From a virus: a DNA stretch of 24,229 bases. The notes under the pieces were generated by a model. The model saw only the letters and a list, made by a program, of their open reading frames with translations. It did no database searches and was not told where the DNA came from. The DNA lies in IMG/VR virus record IMGVR_UViG_3300032223_000005, positions 1-24,229 of that record. One strand, written 5' to 3'. Below, piece after piece: positions 1,715 to 13,459 of this stretch. How positions within the stretch are numbered: position 1 is the first letter of the stretch; each line of letters starts with the position of its first letter. Both the position numbers and the translations under genes were made by a program.

Positions 1715-3795
1715 TGGCAGAGATCATTAAAGGCGAAGCCGATGACGGCAAAGAGTTATCTCAGAATGAGTTTGAACAACCGACTGAGAATGACAAAGAA
1801 CTTGTTGGCTTTGTAAATGACCACTGCAATCGCTGGCGTGACTATCGTGATGTCAACTGGCTCCCTGATTGGCAAGAATATGAGCGTTTATTCCGAGGCC
1901 AATGGGCTGAAGAAGATAAGACCCGTGAGTCTGAACGTTCACGCATCGTAACCCCTGCCACACAACAAGCCATTGAGACTCGCCATGCCGAGATCATGGA
2001 GGCAATCTTTGGTCAAGGCGACTTCTTTGACATTGACGATGACATTGAAGATGTGAACGGCAATCCTTTGGATGTTGCTGCCATCAAAGCACAGTTGATG
2101 GAAGACTTCAAAAAGGACAAAATCCGCAAGTCTATCGATCAGATTGAGTTGATGGCAGAGATTTACGGGACTGGTATTGGCGAGATTGTCGTTACCACTG
2201 AAAAAGAATTTGTCCCCGCAACCCGTCCTATTCCTGGTCAACAAGGCCAGGCCGCTATTGGTGTGGTAGAAAAAGACAGAATTGCAGTCAAGATTGTTCC
2301 TGTCAATCCCAAGAATTTTTTGTTTGATCCTAATGGCACATCCATTGATGACTGCATGGGCGTGGCAATCGAGAAGTTTGTGTCTATTCACAAAATTGTG
2401 CGTGGACAAGAAAAGGGTATCTATCGCAAGGTGCAGATTGATACGGGAATGACTGATGATGACTTGGAAGCAACCCAAGAAGTTACCCAGTTCCAAGATG
2501 ATAAGGTCAAATTGCTGACCTATTATGGTCTGGTTCCCCGTGAATACCTGATAAAGATGGATGAAGAACAGGAAATGGTTGATCTATTTCCTGATGACTC
2601 AATTCAAGATGAGTATTCTGACTTGGTTGAGGCCATTGTGGTCATTGCCAACGATGGAACCTTGCTGAAAGCTGAAGAAAATCCATACATGATGAAGGAT
2701 CGGCCCGTCTTGGCATACCAAGATGACACTGTTCCCAATCGATTGTTGGGTAGGGGTACGGCTGAAAAGGCATTCAATATGCAAAAAGCTATTGATGCTC
2801 AGATTCGCTCACACCTAGACTCATTGGCGCTGACCACCAGCCCAATGATTGCAATGGATGCCACTCGTTTACCCCGTGGCGCTAAGTTTGAAGTCAAACC
2901 TGGAAAAGCCATTCTGACAAACGGCAATCCTGGCGAGATTTTGTTCCCATTCAAGTTTGGCAATACTGATGGCAACAACCTGACTACTGCCCAAGCCTTT
3001 GAGCGTATGCTTTTGCAAGCAACTGCTACTTTGGATTCTCAAGGTATGGTTACTCAAGGTGCTAGAGATGCCAATCCTGGCATTTCTATGGCTGTTGCTA
3101 CCATCATCAAGAAGTACAAGCGCACTTTGGTGAACTTCCAAGAGGATTTCCTAATTCCCTTCATCCAGAAGGCAGCTTTCAGGTATATGCAGTTTGATCC
3201 TGAGCGTTATCCTACTGTGGATTACAAGTTCATTCCGACTGCAACCCTTGGCATCATTGCCCGTGAACATGAGCAACAGCAATTTATCTCTTTGCTTCAG
3301 ACCCTTGGCCCAAATACGCCAATTTTGCCTGTCATTATGAAAGGCATTGTTGCCAACAGCAGCTTGAGCAATAGACAAGAAATGATGGCAATGCTTGACC
3401 AAATGTCTAAACCTGATACTCAGGGTCAGCAAATGCAGATGATGCAGCAACAGTTGGCAATGCAAGCGGCTCAGGCTCAGATTGCTGTCAATACGACTCA
3501 GGCAGAACAGAATCGTGCAGAAGCAACTAAGTTGATGGTTGAGGCTCAGTTGATGCCACAGGAAGTGCAAGCCAAGATGAGTGCATCTTTGACCAAGAAT
3601 CTACCTAATGAGGCAGATGCCAATCAAAGGGAGTTTGATAAGCGGGTCAAGATTGCTGACTTGATGCTTAAAGAAGCTGACATTAAGAACAAGTCAAAGA
3701 TTGTTGAGTTGCAAATGGCTGATAAGGTAAATGCTCAGTCCAAAGTCAAGCAAGATTTCCTTGCCAAACTCACAGATGGTCTAAAGAATGGCTAA
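1714..3795 (+). CDS. Portal protein (head-tail connector)
   Basis: This 693-residue protein should form the dodecameric ring through which DNA enters and leaves the capsid. It follows TerL directly by TAATG overlap, the usual place for a portal. Its size fits the large P22-type portals of short-tailed phages. The N-terminal half has an acidic start, then aromatic-rich segments such as WRDYRDVNWLPDWQEYERLF (42-61), typical of podophage portals seen in aquatic viromes. From about residue 560 it becomes Gln/Met/Ala-rich (QGQQMQMMQQQ), predicted helical, and could form the C-terminal barrel of P22-like portals. No catalytic motif is expected. The call rests on position, size and composition rather than a diagnostic short motif. 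Confidence 0.9.
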   Translation: MAEIIKGEADDGKELSQNEFEQPTENDKELVGFVNDHCNRWRDYRDVNWLPDWQEYERLFRGQWAEEDKTRESERSRIVTPATQQAIETRHAEIMEAIFGQGDFFDIDDDIEDVNGNPLDVAAIKAQLMEDFKKDKIRKSIDQIELMAEIYGTGIGEIVVTTEKEFVPATRPIPGQQGQAAIGVVEKDRIAVKIVPVNPKNFLFDPNGTSIDDCMGVAIEKFVSIHKIVRGQEKGIYRKVQIDTGMTDDDLEATQEVTQFQDDKVKLLTYYGLVPREYLIKMDEEQEMVDLFPDDSIQDEYSDLVEAIVVIANDGTLLKAEENPYMMKDRPVLAYQDDTVPNRLLGRGTAEKAFNMQKAIDAQIRSHLDSLALTTSPMIAMDATRLPRGAKFEVKPGKAILTNGNPGEILFPFKFGNTDGNNLTTAQAFERMLLQATATLDSQGMVTQGARDANPGISMAVATIIKKYKRTLVNFQEDFLIPFIQKAAFRYMQFDPERYPTVDYKFIPTATLGIIAREHEQQQFISLLQTLGPNTPILPVIMKGIVANSSLSNRQEMMAMLDQMSKPDTQGQQMQMMQQQLAMQAAQAQIAVNTTQAEQNRAEATKLMVEAQLMPQEVQAKMSASLTKNLPNEADANQREFDKRVKIADLMLKEADIKNKSKIVELQMADKVNAQSKVKQDFLAKLTDGLKNG

Positions 3796-5089
3796 TATCA
3801 AAGAACTTATCCAAAGTATTGAGTCAATAGACTCATCTTTTGATGAGAAGTTAGAAGCCATCAATAAGATGGAAGAAACCTTGGTGGCTATGCGCCAACA
3901 AGAAGAACAAGCCGTTCAAGACAATGTAGACCTGATTGTTGAGGCCATCAAAGTGATGGAGAACAAGGTCACTGCACAACTAGAAGTTGCAAAGTCTATT
4001 ATTCCTGAGAAGGGTGACAAGGGAGATAAGGGTGACAAGGGTGCAGATGGCCTCCCAGGTGTAGATGGAAAGAATGGATTAAATGGTAGAGATGGAAAAG
4101 ATGGCATTGATGGTGCAGATGGTGTTTCTGTAATAGATGCCAAGATTGACTTTGATGGTTCGTTGGTTATTACCTTGTCAACAGGCAAAGAGCTGAATGT
4201 TGGTGAAGTAGTTGCTCCAAACTTGGCAGAAAAGATCAAAGTCATCAGCACCATGTCCACCAATGGGGCCGTGACTATCTTAGATGAAGGCACAAGCATC
4301 ACAAGTGGAGTTAAGAAGATCAATTTTGTTGGTGCGACTGTTACTGCTACCAATTCAGGGGACGATGTAACTGTCAATGTAAGCGCAGGGACGGGAACAG
4401 TAACAAGCGTTGCTGCGTTGACTATAGGCACAACAGGAACTGATTTAAGTTCTACTGTTGCTACTGGAACAACAACCCCAGTAATTACTTTAAATGTTCC
4501 TACCGCATCTGCAACTAATCGTGGCGCGTTAAGTTCTGCCGATTGGACAACTTTTAACAACAAAGGTGTAGGTACTGTAACGAGTGTTGCGGCAACTGTT
4601 CCAGCATTTTTGTCTGTTACTGGTTCGCCAGTTACAACAAGTGGCACGTTGGCAATTACATTGTCTGGTACAGCTCTACCAATAACTAATGGTGGTACGG
4701 GTGCAACGACATTGGCTGGTGCATCTATTGTCACTTACACAGGAACAGAGACACTAACCAACAAGCGTATTGACCCAAGGGTTACTTCAGCCGCATCAGC
4801 ATCTTCTTTAACGCCAAGCGTTGCAACCGCTGATGTTTATGCCTACACAGCTTTGGCAGCGGGTTTGACAATCAATGCCCCAACAGGAACGCCATTAGAC
4901 GGGGACAAGCTGATGTTTAGACTGCTGGACAACGGCACACCGCAATCATTGACCTGGAACGCGACTTACACAGTCATTGGCGTAACTTTGCCAACCACTA
5001 CGACAGCAAGCAAAACAACGTATGTAGGGTGTATATACAACGCAAACAATACACGTTGGGATGTAATTGCAGTAACCACACAGGCATGA
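3788..5089 (+). CDS. Collagen-repeat tail fibre / adhesin
   Basis: This 433-residue protein is probably a trimeric virion fibre. Residues 1-70 are charged and helical (coiled-coil-like). They are followed by 12 uninterrupted Gly-X-Y triplets (residues 76-111, bases 4013-4120; GDKGDKGDKGADG at the start), a collagen-like triple helix. After that come Ser/Thr/Gly-rich beta repeats (GTGTVTSVA occurs once and GVGTVTSVA again; ITNGGTGATTLAG) typical of phage fibre shafts, then a C-terminal domain starting near GTETLTNKRIDPRV that resembles heads found on many phage fibres. It overlaps the portal gene by 8 bases. A receptor-binding role is inferred from architecture. The ATG at 3788 has no strong ribosome site, so translational coupling to the portal is likely. 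Confidence 0.82.
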   Translation: MANIKELIQSIESIDSSFDEKLEAINKMEETLVAMRQQEEQAVQDNVDLIVEAIKVMENKVTAQLEVAKSIIPEKGDKGDKGDKGADGLPGVDGKNGLNGRDGKDGIDGADGVSVIDAKIDFDGSLVITLSTGKELNVGEVVAPNLAEKIKVISTMSTNGAVTILDEGTSITSGVKKINFVGATVTATNSGDDVTVNVSAGTGTVTSVAALTIGTTGTDLSSTVATGTTTPVITLNVPTASATNRGALSSADWTTFNNKGVGTVTSVAATVPAFLSVTGSPVTTSGTLAITLSGTALPITNGGTGATTLAGASIVTYTGTETLTNKRIDPRVTSAASASSLTPSVATADVYAYTALAAGLTINAPTGTPLDGDKLMFRLLDNGTPQSLTWNATYTVIGVTLPTTTTASKTTYVGCIYNANNTRWDVIAVTTQA

Positions 5090-7081: not shown

Positions 7082-8458
7082 ATGGCAACCACAGTATCTC
7101 TAAAACCTAATGCTGTTGAAATCTCTGGTTCTACATCAGGGACAACCACATTGCAAGCAACTGCGGTAGCGGGTACTACTACTTTGACGCTTCCTGCGGC
7201 TACTGACACTTTGGTTGGTCGAGCAACCACTGATACGCTTACCAATAAGACGTTGTCCACACCTAGCATATCAAGCCCGACTATCTCTGATGGCACAGCT
7301 AATGGTGTTGCCTATCTCAATGGCTCCAAGGTGCTGACTACGGGTAGTGCGTTGGTCTTTGATGGGTCGAATTTGGGTGTGGGTGTTACGCCTAGTGCAA
7401 AGCTGGACGTTGTTGCAAGTAATTTTGTCGGTGGCCCCGCTATTGGCGCTCGATTTAACACAAGCAATGCGCGTATTGGATTTAACATTGCAAATTCAAA
7501 CGGCTTTCCTTACATTGGCTACAACACAAATAACGTAAGTGGCTCTGATACGCCAACTTACGATTTAAACCAAGCTGCTGCTCAACTTCGGATGGATGGT
7601 GGGTCGTTTAAATTTAACATTGCCGCATCCGGAACAGCAGGGGCTGGAATTTCCTTCACCCAAGCAATGACCCTTGATGCAAGCGGTAACTTGGGTGTTG
7701 GCACAACAAGTCCAAACTCAAGACTTCAAGTAAGCAATGCAAGCGCATCAACAAACGCCATTGCTCAATTCACAAATGGAACAACTGGCACAGGTGCTGG
7801 CAATGGTTTGTATGTTGGTGTGGACACTTCAAATGAAGCAACCATATTTAACTTTTACAACTCTGCACTAAAGTTTGGAACAAACAGCACAGAACGCGCC
7901 CGTATCGACTCCAGCGGTCGGTTGATAATTGGAAATACAACCATGCCCGTTGGGTATGGAACTGCTTTAAATGTGTATACCACGGGTCTTGGTGCTCGTG
8001 TTTATGGAACAGCGGAAGCAACTGGCCCATTTTGGGTTGATAAACAAACAAACACAAGTTCAACATCTCAAGTATTTGTTCAATTCACAATCAACACTCA
8101 ATCAACAGGAAATGGGCAAATAAACGGAAATGGCGCAAGCCAAGTTGCATTTGGCTCATTTTCTGATGCCCGTCTGAAAGAAAACATTGTTGACTTGCCT
8201 CCACAGCTTGCCAACATCATGGCATTGCGTCCGGTTGAGTTTGATTACATTGAATCAGAAGGTGGCGGTCATCAAACTAGCTTTGTTGCTCAAGAATTTG
8301 AGGAAGTCTATCCAGACGCAATTGGAGAGCGACCCGATGGCATGAAGACCTTAACAGGCTGGGGAAAGACGGAAGCAAGATTGGTCAAAGCCATTCAAGA
8401 ACAACAAGCCCTCATCACCCAACTTACCGCCCGTATAACCGCTTTGGAAGGAGCATAA
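7082..8458 (+). CDS. Tail fibre with C-terminal S74 intramolecular chaperone
   Basis: This 458-residue fibre protein ends in a peptidase_S74-type domain that drives trimerisation and then cuts itself off. The hallmark is FGSFSDARLKENI (357-369). Ser361 and Lys366 sit five apart, as in the Ser-Lys dyad of endosialidase-type chaperones, and cleavage before Ser361 would release about 98 residues. The domain continues through LRPVEFDYI and SFVAQEFEEVYPDAI and closes with a coiled coil (KAIQEQQALITQLTARITAL). The front holds beta repeats of fibre type, TDTLTNKTLSTPSISSPTIS, and modules with GNLGVGTTSP and ERARIDSSGRLIIG. AAAGGA at 7069-7074 gives a good ribosome site. The 35 bases before the gene show no clear terminator. 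It is a likely receptor-binding fibre. Confidence 0.92.
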   Translation: MATTVSLKPNAVEISGSTSGTTTLQATAVAGTTTLTLPAATDTLVGRATTDTLTNKTLSTPSISSPTISDGTANGVAYLNGSKVLTTGSALVFDGSNLGVGVTPSAKLDVVASNFVGGPAIGARFNTSNARIGFNIANSNGFPYIGYNTNNVSGSDTPTYDLNQAAAQLRMDGGSFKFNIAASGTAGAGISFTQAMTLDASGNLGVGTTSPNSRLQVSNASASTNAIAQFTNGTTGTGAGNGLYVGVDTSNEATIFNFYNSALKFGTNSTERARIDSSGRLIIGNTTMPVGYGTALNVYTTGLGARVYGTAEATGPFWVDKQTNTSSTSQVFVQFTINTQSTGNGQINGNGASQVAFGSFSDARLKENIVDLPPQLANIMALRPVEFDYIESEGGGHQTSFVAQEFEEVYPDAIGERPDGMKTLTGWGKTEARLVKAIQEQQALITQLTARITALEGA

Positions 8459-8755: not shown

Positions 8756-8991
8756 GTCCTGAATTACAGAAATACTATGAAAATCGCTTCTCTATGATGG
8801 GAAGTGATGGGTGGAAAGACTTGGTGGAGGATATTGACACCATGATTGCATCCTTGAATAATATATCTGTGATTGATGGTGAAAAAGACCTAAAATTCAA
8901 GCAAGGCGAGTTATCTATCCTAAACTGGCTCAAAACCTTGCAAGAGGTGAGCAAAAGGGCTTACGAGGAACTTGATGAAAAGAATGTATGA
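8752..8991 (+). CDS. Small helical protein, unknown function (GTG start)
   Basis: I read a 79-residue protein from the GTG at 8752, which overlaps the previous stop as GTGA. GGAG at 8741-8744 lies seven bases upstream. A TTG three bases earlier is in frame but is spaced less well. The protein is charged and mostly helical, with two segments (about 20-40 and 50-75), and has no membrane segment or recognisable motif. It overlaps the zinc-ribbon gene that follows, and the two probably act or are made together. Such helical-plus-zinc-ribbon pairs occur just before scaffold genes in other aquatic podophages (recalled, not checked). Function unknown. Confidence 0.68.
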   Translation: MSPELQKYYENRFSMMGSDGWKDLVEDIDTMIASLNNISVIDGEKDLKFKQGELSILNWLKTLQEVSKRAYEELDEKNV

Positions 8992-9202
8992 ATTTGTCTG
9001 TGAAAGCGGGCATAGAACTGAAAAGCTGATTGGTTATGAGACTGTCAGTTTGAAGTGTGATTGCGGTGCAACAGCCAACCGAGTCATATCGGCTCCAGCA
9101 ATCAATTTAGAAGGGTGGTCAGGGAGTTTTCCTGGTGCGGCAAACAAGTTTGATCGCAGACACCAAGATAAATTGAAGGCAGAGCAAAAAGCCAACTCAT
9201 AA
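8975..9202 (+). CDS. FmdB-like zinc-ribbon protein
   Basis: This 75-residue protein opens MKRMYEFVCESGHRTEKL and continues with LKCDCGATANRVISAP. The pattern of an aromatic start, a Cys/His knuckle (C-x3-H) and then a C-x-C knuckle resembles the short FmdB-type regulatory zinc ribbons, with one ligand pair altered from the usual C-x2-C. The remainder (GWSGSFPGAANKFDRRHQDK) is basic and probably unstructured. I chose the ATG at 8975, four bases after GAGGAA (8965-8970); the ATG at 8984 is the alternative. It overlaps the previous gene by 17 bases. The role in the phage is unknown; nucleic-acid or protein binding is possible. Confidence 0.72.
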   Translation: MKRMYEFVCESGHRTEKLIGYETVSLKCDCGATANRVISAPAINLEGWSGSFPGAANKFDRRHQDKLKAEQKANS

Positions 9203-11685: not shown

Positions 11686-11881
11686 TATAGACGCTAGAGA
11701 TTTTGGAAAACTGGAGGCTCAAGTTCAGGCTCTCCAGAATGAAGTTCAATCTTTGGGCAAAGATGTTAAAGAATTGCTTGAACTTGCCAACAAAGGCAAG
11801 GGTGGGTTTTGGATGGGCATGACGATTGCCTCTGCTGTGGGTGGTGTTTTTACCTTTATTGGTGAAAGGCTGCTCAAATGA
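11678..11881 (+). CDS. Coiled-coil protein with C-terminal membrane helix (holin-accessory-like)
   Basis: From the ATG at 11678, eight bases before the previous stop and seven after AAGGAAA (11664-11670), this is a 67-residue protein. Residues 8-40 form a heptad-like coiled coil (FGKLEAQVQALQNEVQSLGK), followed by a glycine-bearing hydrophobic segment (GGFWMGMTIASAVGGVFTFI, about 44-63) and a short basic end. Coiled coil plus one C-terminal membrane helix resembles the XhlA-type holin-associated proteins and other small phage membrane proteins. The longer in-frame ORF from 11546 is not credible because it runs through the preceding gene. A role in lysis or membrane association is inferred only. 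Confidence 0.72.
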   Translation: MSDIDARDFGKLEAQVQALQNEVQSLGKDVKELLELANKGKGGFWMGMTIASAVGGVFTFIGERLLK

Positions 11882-12288
11882 AAGGCTTGCTCTCAGGTTC
11901 TATTTGTCCCCTGCCTACTCAGGATGTATCGACTAACCTGAAGAACAGAAACAACGCATTCAAGAAGTTTGGTTATGGCCCACCCAACCCTGATGAAGCA
12001 AACGATGCTTTCTGGTTGAAAAAGGCCAAAATGTATAACGCTCCTACCTCTGTCATCAAGGGCATGAGATGTGGGAATTGTGCCGCTTTCATTCAGACTC
12101 CAAAGATGATGGAGTGCATCCTTGGTGGACTAGAGAAGGATGAAAAGATTGGTGAGTTGTCCTATGACGAAAACTTTGTCAAGGCGGCTAATCTGGGATA
12201 CTGTGATCTGTTTCAATTCACCTGTGCTGCGGCCCGCACTTGTGATGCCTGGAAGTCTGGTGGGCCAATAACCAAGGAAAAAGCATGA
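11878..12288 (+). CDS. Cys-rich protein, possible HiPIP-like iron-sulphur binder
   Basis: This 136-residue protein starts at an ATGA overlap with the membrane-protein gene. It has seven cysteines, six of them clustered: C65-x2-C68 (MRCGNCAAF), C80, C109 (NLGYCDLF), C116 and C122 (CAAARTCDAW). The C-x2-C, third Cys and G-Y-C-x2-F pattern resembles high-potential iron-sulphur proteins, although the spacing between C80 and C109 is longer than usual and two extra cysteines are present. A structural zinc site or disulphides are alternatives. The N-terminus is not a clear signal peptide. The C-terminal SGGPITKEKA is basic. It lies close to a Dps-like gene, which hints at redox or iron chemistry; this is inference. 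Confidence 0.68.
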   Translation: MKGLLSGSICPLPTQDVSTNLKNRNNAFKKFGYGPPNPDEANDAFWLKKAKMYNAPTSVIKGMRCGNCAAFIQTPKMMECILGGLEKDEKIGELSYDENFVKAANLGYCDLFQFTCAAARTCDAWKSGGPITKEKA

Positions 12289-12443: not shown

Positions 12444-12760
12444 TGTCTACATTTCAACTCGATCCAAATCAAGTAGCCTGGGGTGTTGCCAGTAATGGCA
12501 CAACTCAAGTGGCAACAGTAACCACTAGCAGCGTTCAAATGACTGCTTTTGGAGCAACTACAACTATGATTCGTATTGCTTGTGGTCAAGGTCATTGTCA
12601 CTATGCAATTGGTGCAAGTCCAACTGCAAGCATAACAACATCAGCTATGATTCCACCAAATTGCGTTGAAATTGTGCGAGTAACTCCTGGACAAAAGATT
12701 GCATTTATCAAAGATGCAACTATTACTGCTTCAACTGTTTCTGTAACGGAGTTAGTATGA
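12443..12760 (+). CDS. Small beta-rich protein, possible virion component
   Basis: This 105-residue protein is mostly beta strand, rich in Thr, Ala and Val, and nearly uncharged (for example TTQVATVTTSSVQMTAFGAT). It contains three cysteines, among them CGQGHC. Composition and size suggest a small structural domain like those on phage heads or tails; I cannot name a family. It overlaps the preceding basic gene by one base (TAATG) and the following basic gene by three (ATGA), so it is embedded in the small-protein cluster. A virion location is inferred from composition alone. Confidence 0.66.
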   Translation: MSTFQLDPNQVAWGVASNGTTQVATVTTSSVQMTAFGATTTMIRIACGQGHCHYAIGASPTASITTSAMIPPNCVEIVRVTPGQKIAFIKDATITASTVSVTELV

Positions 12761-12897
12761 AAACCAAAGCGGCTAAAAAAGTGGATAAAGTCATGCACGA
12801 GTACAAGGCTGGCACTCTGCACTCTGGTTCTAAAAAGGGGCCAGAAGTAACCTCTCGTAAGCAAGCAATTGCCATTACTGTGAAAGTGATGAACTGA
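12757..12897 (+). CDS. Small basic protein, DUF6496-like, copy 1
   Basis: This 46-residue ORF starts at an ATGA overlap. It contains the core KVMHEYKAGTLHSGSKKGP followed by VTSRKQAIAI, a pattern I associate with small proteins of the DUF6496 type found in phages and bacteria (number from memory). It is closely related to the gene at 13283, sharing 26 identical bases (12818-12843 and 13347-13372). The usual ending ALSEAGK is replaced here by TVKVMN and a stop, so this copy looks C-terminally shortened or diverged. The high lysine content suggests nucleic-acid binding, but the function is unknown. The next gene starts one base after its stop. Confidence 0.74.
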   Translation: MKTKAAKKVDKVMHEYKAGTLHSGSKKGPEVTSRKQAIAITVKVMN

Positions 12898-12898
12898 A

Positions 12899-13273
12899 AT
12901 GGCTAACTCAACTGTTGCTGGCAAGTTTGTAGGGTTGTTGTTTGCGGCTCGAACAGTCGCACACATGATCCACCTGAAAACTAGGATTTATTCACAACAT
13001 AAAACTTTGAACGAGTTTTATGAAGCAATTGTTCCTTTGGCAGACGATTTTGCTCAACAGTGGCAAGGTCGTTATGGCATGGATTTGGACATTCCTATGC
13101 TTGGCAATGAGTACAAGGGTACGATTACTGAGGTCATCCAGCAACAGATGGATTGGATTGAGTCTAATCGTCAGCAGATTGTGCCTCGCACTGAGACTGC
13201 CTTGCAAAACAAGATTGATGAAATCGTTGCGTTGTACCAAAACACCTTGTATTTGTTGAAATGGTTTAAATAA
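12899..13273 (+). CDS. Dps/ferritin-like protein (DUF5856-type)
   Basis: This 124-residue helical protein resembles the phage family I know as DUF5856, related to Dps and ferritins. Dps proteins form shells that oxidise and store iron and may bind DNA. His22, His34 and Asp49 occur at spacings of 12 and 15, exactly those of the Dps ferroxidase ligands His-His-Asp (31/43/58 in Listeria Dps). The fourth ligand position, 53, is Gln instead of Glu. The core is HMIHLKTRIYSQHKTLNEFY, then LADDFAQQWQGRYG, and the final helix LQNKIDEIVALYQNTLYLL resembles the last Dps helix. It is shorter than the 150-165 residues usual for Dps. Two related basic-protein genes flank it. An iron-binding role is inferred and full activity is doubtful with Gln53. 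Confidence 0.78.
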   Translation: MANSTVAGKFVGLLFAARTVAHMIHLKTRIYSQHKTLNEFYEAIVPLADDFAQQWQGRYGMDLDIPMLGNEYKGTITEVIQQQMDWIESNRQQIVPRTETALQNKIDEIVALYQNTLYLLKWFK

Positions 13274-13282
13274 GGAACCACC

Positions 13283-13459
13283 ATGAAATCAGGAAAAGCA
13301 AAAGATAAAATTGTCAAAGTAATGACTGAATGGAAGGGTGGCAAGTTGCACTCTGGTTCTAAAAAGGGGCCAATGGTCACTTCTCAGAAACAGGCGGTGG
13401 CAATTGCTCTATCTGAAGCTGGTAAATCTAAGCCAAAAAAGAAGATGTATGGCTACTAA
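13283..13459 (+). CDS. Small basic protein, DUF6496-like, copy 2
   Basis: This 58-residue protein has a good ribosome site (AAGGA at 13272-13276, six bases before ATG). It holds the full motif KVMTEWKGGKLHSGSKKGP, VTSQKQAVAIALSEAGK, then a basic end KPKKKMYGY. It is the intact-looking paralogue of the gene at 12757, and the two flank the Dps-like gene. The KMYGY ending recalls the MYGKP start of the small protein at 12285. Lysine richness suggests contact with DNA or RNA. The function is not known to me. It overlaps the next gene by 11 bases. Confidence 0.78.
   Translation: MKSGKAKDKIVKVMTEWKGGKLHSGSKKGPMVTSQKQAVAIALSEAGKSKPKKKMYGY

Follow-up and report, generated by a model that had tools for sequence, protein, structure and literature searches.

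We found that the open reading frame at 12899-13273 (+) of the window, that is, of the whole stretch of 24,229 nucleotides of viral DNA that was analyzed, encodes a protein of 124 aa which, as judged from sequence comparison, is a remote relative of Dps. By the same comparison, many phage proteins of 'unknown function', including T4 RI.-1, are stripped-down Dps relatives. The ORF is real and is under strong purifying selection. We consider it probable, though by no means certain, that the product is a cut-down miniferritin subunit of the Dps type and binds iron inside the infected cell, and that its site is weakened in the clade of the window protein, in which residue 53 is Gln (Gln53 clade). 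Iron handling by the window protein itself is plausible. The positions of the gene, its structural elements, its candidate ligand residues and its neighbors are given in Table 1.

Table 1. Features of the DUF5856 gene and its surroundings in the window
Feature	Positions	Strand	Evidence
DUF5856 / PHROG 858 gene, tail-less mini-Dps protein (putative), 124 aa	12899..13273	+	Pfam E 8.9e-19, PHROG E 4e-22, AF2 pLDDT 96.5 / pTM 0.90
Helix A, residues 4-27	12908..12979	+	DSSP on model
His22, conserved, not invariant; matches the position three residues N-terminal of Dps His51	12962..12964	+	homologue counts, Dps comparison
His25, equivalent to Dps His51 / Listeria His31; invariant	12971..12973	+	profile alignments, homologue counts
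A-B loop, residues 28-30 (shortened by three relative to Dps)	12980..12988	+	model, alignment, longer-loop relatives
Helix B, residues 31-59	12989..13075	+	model
His34, invariant; counterpart of Dps His63	12998..13000	+	homologue counts, HHalign
Asp49, equivalent to Dps Asp78; no variation among intact members	13043..13045	+	homologue counts, HHalign
Gln53, at the position of Dps Glu82; Gln arose once on tree	13055..13057	+	homologue counts, ML tree
Helix C, residues 76-94, break at 90	13124..13180	+	model
Helix D, residues 100-122	13196..13264	+	model
DUF6496 basic protein, upstream paralogue	12757..12897	+	Pfam
DUF6496 basic protein, downstream paralogue	13283..13459	+	Pfam
Cys-rich HiPIP-like protein	11878..12288	+	cysteine pattern, relatives' annotations

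Relationship of the DUF5856 family to Dps

The ORF matches Pfam DUF5856 (PF19174) with 68.8 bits against a curated cut-off of 34.6, and it also matches PHROG 858, which the PHROG authors named 'starvation-inducible transcriptional regulator', a hint that a similarity to Dps had been noticed before. DUF5856 is carried by 1,367 to 1,416 of 50,697 phage records, mostly T4-like, and by >570 IMG/VR stretches; genome collections contained just five relatives on chromosomes, each of them in a metagenome assembly, and a cellular ancestor of the family was not identified among them. Three homologue sets were used, namely 15 close relatives, 106 diverse members, and 221 unique homologues for the residue counts. 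A single-sequence search of the PDB with the window protein gave no useful match, the Pfam Ferritin model found nothing in the window, and DUF5856 members do not reach the Ferritin cut-off (one of the 106 scored E 0.003). With a profile built from the 15 close relatives, HP-NAP and other Dps already ranked first among solved structures (E 0.007). With the 106-member profile, HP-NAP was the best solved structure (E 2e-4), followed by Deinococcus Dps2, CAIP, Yersinia Dps, MrgA, and E. coli Dps, and no non-Dps match among solved structures was better than E 0.7. HHalign aligned the family with nine Dps over residues 5-121 (E 1.8e-5, probability 78%) and gave no match with E. coli FtnA and Bfr, a control profile of two sequences only. 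Ferritin and bacterioferritin are 24-mers with an intrasubunit diiron site; Dps, a bacterial protein that oxidizes and stores iron, is a dodecamer.

The AlphaFold model of the window protein is a four-helix bundle (scores in Table 1). In a Foldseek search of the PDB, Dps structures came out on top and made up nearly all of the nearest folds, with a probability of about 1.00 and a TM of about 0.7 (0.6-0.7 for most), at E-values of 0.06 or worse; we take this ranking as support, not proof. A T4-type DUF5856 member (pLDDT 92.9) likewise ranked Dps first. We call the homology remote because the Foldseek E-value against the PDB was never below 0.06 and the HHalign probability was 78%. An earlier note on this DNA had read the protein as Dps/ferritin-like, and the Dps part of that reading is borne out by the profiles, by HHalign, by the predicted bundle and by Foldseek. 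In a viral fold library, predicted proteins of the giant viruses Pithovirus LCPAC404 and Fadolivirus also matched the fold (TM 0.73-0.75), and a 'prohead protease' (A0A6J7XDU5) includes a similar bundle, with a weak E-value.

Compared with Dps (E. coli, Listeria, HP-NAP), the window protein has the same four-helix bundle and remote homology, with the counterparts of His51, His63, and Asp78 in place, whereas it differs in being only 124 aa long, in having no tail and no BC helix, in an A-B loop shortened by three residues, and in Asn38 for Asp67, Gln for Glu82, and Leu for Trp52. No helix is present in residues 60-75 of the model, where the BC helix would lie. The Dps dimer contact uses the helix between B and C; Dps-like pairing is therefore not assured and the dimer could differ. 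A basic N- or C-terminal DNA-binding tail, common in Dps though not universal, is absent, as indicated by the model (helix A starts at residue 4 and helix D reaches residue 122 of 124) and by the net charge of -1. Only 21 of the 219 homologues have an acidic residue (D or E) at Dps position 67. Such a residue is not essential in NpDps4, an example of a substituted Dps site that still works, and other substitutions at the site, among them Asn at 67 as at residue 38 here, are known in Dps (PMC6675082).

Candidate metal ligands and the substitution at residue 53

The earlier note placed His22, His34, Asp49, and Gln53 correctly in the ORF, and proposed that three of the four ferroxidase ligands are kept, with His22 as the equivalent of E. 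coli Dps His51 and Listeria His31; it paired His22 with His34 because the two are 12 apart. The count of three and the Gln in place of Glu are right, but the first His is His25. Indeed, His25 and His34 are invariant in 219 of the 219 sequences that cover them (221 unique homologues), whereas 15/219 have K, R, Q or Y at position 22; Dps proteins also vary at the counterpart of position 22 (Lys, His, Gln or Trp). Asp49 is invariant too, the sole exception among the homologues being a fragment from a frameshifted T4 record. The 106-member alignment has only five invariant columns, H25, H34, D49, G57, and Y118. Thus the family conservation that the note expected of its three residues exists for His34 and Asp49, and for His25, and not for His22.

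Moreover, in the HMM and HHalign alignments the ligand His of the Dps 'HW' motif falls on His25, with a three-residue gap in the A-B loop, and HP-NAP His25, which occupies the same Dps position as Dps His51 and Listeria His31, is aligned to His25 of the window protein. HW occurs at 25-26 in many distant relatives. In seven relatives (L233, L236, L239, L240, L244, L250, L255) the A-B loop is three residues longer, which puts the second His, that of HW, exactly 12 before the counterpart of His34, as in Dps; these seven carry the complete H-x11-H-x14-D-x3-E pattern at the Dps loop length. Therefore, in view of the invariance of His25, the gapped alignments and the longer-loop relatives, we rejected His22 as the Dps ligand and regard the His22-His34 spacing of 12 as a coincidence. 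An H-H-D triad spaced 12 and 15 arises in 0.18% of shuffles of the window protein.

Residue 53 is Glu in about 85% of the family: of 220 homologues, 188 have Glu, 31 have Gln, and one has Asp. Most DUF5856 members thus have counterparts of all four Dps ligands (His51, His63, Asp78, Glu82), and the window protein has three. Gln53 is confined to the clade of the window protein, which is monophyletic on a maximum-likelihood tree (support 100/97), so that one Glu-to-Gln change suffices. Within this clade, the median dN/dS is 0.077, the codons of the His and Asp residues show silent changes, and other nearby residues are altered, e.g. Pro46 and Gln54. Gln53 may mean that catalysis is not needed. 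In the best of the other explanations, the protein is a redox-inactive descendant: the Dps-type site of this clade would hold metal for structural purposes alone, or would take up Zn or some other ion, and the protein would now have a scaffolding or assembly role within the capsid-tail operon. The single loss of Glu53, never regained in any clade member, the changes at Pro46 and Gln54, and the retention of the gene in the head/tail operon in the clade loci checked are consistent with it, but the invariance of His25, His34, and Asp49 through silent codon changes exceeds the needs of a purely structural bundle, and Gln is still able to ligate metal; we hold this explanation to be unlikely, if far from negligible.

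Genomic neighborhood

The window gene shares its operon with genes for the terminase, portal, scaffold, capsid, and SU10-type adaptor. Its position in a virion gene operon between two paralogous basic-protein genes, as the earlier note described it, was confirmed, since both neighbors belong to Pfam DUF6496; one is 46 aa long with a net charge of +8, the other 58 aa long with +12. This flanking arrangement is local to the window: in most relatives the DUF5856 gene precedes a DUF6496 gene, so that a local rearrangement or duplication has taken place here. Elsewhere in the window, 3788-5089 (+) contains a collagen-like Gly-X-Y run (GDKGDKGDKGADGLPG) and probably encodes a tail-fibre or decoration protein, the C-terminal part of 7082-8458 (+) resembles, as judged by eye only, an intramolecular chaperone of the peptidase S74 type belonging to a tail-fibre or spike protein, and 8972-9202 (+) encodes a small protein with a weak zinc-ribbon match (Zn_ribbon_8, E 0.004, below the cut-off).

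A homologue of the Cys-rich HiPIP-like protein is encoded directly upstream of the DUF5856 gene, with a gap of <40 bases, in 39 of 42 clade loci, a number that includes some overlapping stretches of one contig; in the window the two genes are about 610 bases apart and not adjacent. The invariant cysteines of the HiPIP-like protein are CGNC at 65-68, C80, C109, C116, and C122, and each of the seven relatives that it has in phage records (7/7) carries the annotation 'high potential iron-sulfur protein'. The name rests on this cysteine pattern and on these annotations, since a Pfam scan and a PDB profile search gave no convincing match. A motif scan did not find the neighbor outside the clade. 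If the HiPIP name is right, two iron-related genes adjoin in the very clade that lost Glu53, which is one evolutionary event and does not imply causation.

Neighbors of the other DUF5856 members vary (portal, tail, lysis). A general adjacency to lysis genes was considered and rejected, as endolysin, holin or lysis-inhibition genes lie next to the gene in only a few cases. A DUF5856 member, rI.-1 (MobD.6), is present in T6 and in intact T4 sequences, and this bears on a rather improbable explanation, in which members such as T4 RI.-1 act in lysis timing with the rI antiholin system, the metal site sensing iron or oxidation. It would accord with the slight prolongation of lysis inhibition by rI.-1 overexpression (Golec et al. 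2010, as reported in the review PMC6832632) and with a Caulobacter phage member that abuts an endolysin gene. Against it, the window gene sits between capsid and adaptor genes, portal is the commonest upstream neighbor in the family (16/79), and the T4 effect is slight and comes from overexpression, while some T4 laboratory lines carry an rI.-1 frameshift and are viable (PMC8573959), so that rI.-1 is dispensable in the laboratory. A T4 'wild' record (L160:2459-2845) has rI.-1 frameshifted with no gene annotated, and intact copies are present in other T4 and T6 records.

The earlier note also suggested a virion protein that protects or compacts DNA, a very unlikely role: the Dps relationship, the morphogenesis operon and the basic neighbors would fit it, but the claim is unsupported because the protein has neither a DNA-binding tail nor a BC helix, its net charge is -1, its place beside basic genes is not conserved, and we found no virion proteomics for the DUF5856 family in the literature. 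Finally, an unrelated four-helix bundle that resembles Dps by chance, which the weak Foldseek E-values might suggest, is hardly credible when several Dps top both profile searches, HHalign gives an E-value as low as that reported above, and seven relatives carry the full ligand pattern at the Dps loop length.

Proposed mechanism and comparison with known systems

For the miniferritin reading that we prefer, we propose that two subunits would pair as in Dps and that, because of this pairing, His25 and His34 of one subunit and Asp49 and residue 53 of the other would form a metal site at the dimer interface. The two-fold interface site is proposed by analogy with Dps structures such as that of Listeria Dps, whose site has Asp58 and Glu62 from one subunit and His31 from its neighbor (PMC8389677). 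Members with Glu53, that is, most of the family, would bind and oxidize Fe(II), thereby removing iron and peroxide during infection. The window protein, with Gln53, would have a weakened site that still binds metal, with a slower or absent ferroxidase activity, and might act as an iron buffer in the infected cell. The HiPIP-like neighbor gene of the clade speaks in favor of this reading. Further, one may speculate that DUF5856 proteins including T4 RI.-1 are separate cut-down phage miniferritins through which assembly and lysis timing, at the end of infection, respond to iron or to the oxidation state, and that the ferroxidase of the window clade became a non-oxidizing iron buffer or donor working with the neighboring HiPIP-like protein; we regard this extension as quite doubtful.

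These results provide a testable mechanism for a family filed under 'unknown function', which occurs in T4 itself and in about 1,400 of 50,697 phage records, and identify the residues to mutate (His25, His34, Asp49, Glu/Gln53). The Gln53 clade amounts to an experiment of nature in which Glu is replaced by Gln at a Dps metal site. T4 rI.-1, with its so far undefined role in lysis inhibition, would also become accessible to biochemistry. We found no paper on DUF5856 in the literature searched, which covers few subscription journals, and that literature does not seem to describe the ligand register, the single origin of Gln53, the reduced anatomy or the link with T4 RI.-1.

Phage-encoded Dps are known from Lactobacillus and Streptomyces phages and 'Gratiaviridae', and have been proposed to counter iron or oxidative damage (PMC6669764, PMC8008677). 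Like the window protein they are phage-encoded and of Dps type, but they are recognizable by BLAST (E. coli Dps retrieves 125 phage records), whereas DUF5856, with its about 1,400 records, is mostly missed. T4 RI.-1 belongs to the same family as the window protein, and the T4-type protein has the same fold prediction; T4-type members keep the Glu and adjoin the rI antiholin gene, whereas the clade of the window protein has Gln53.
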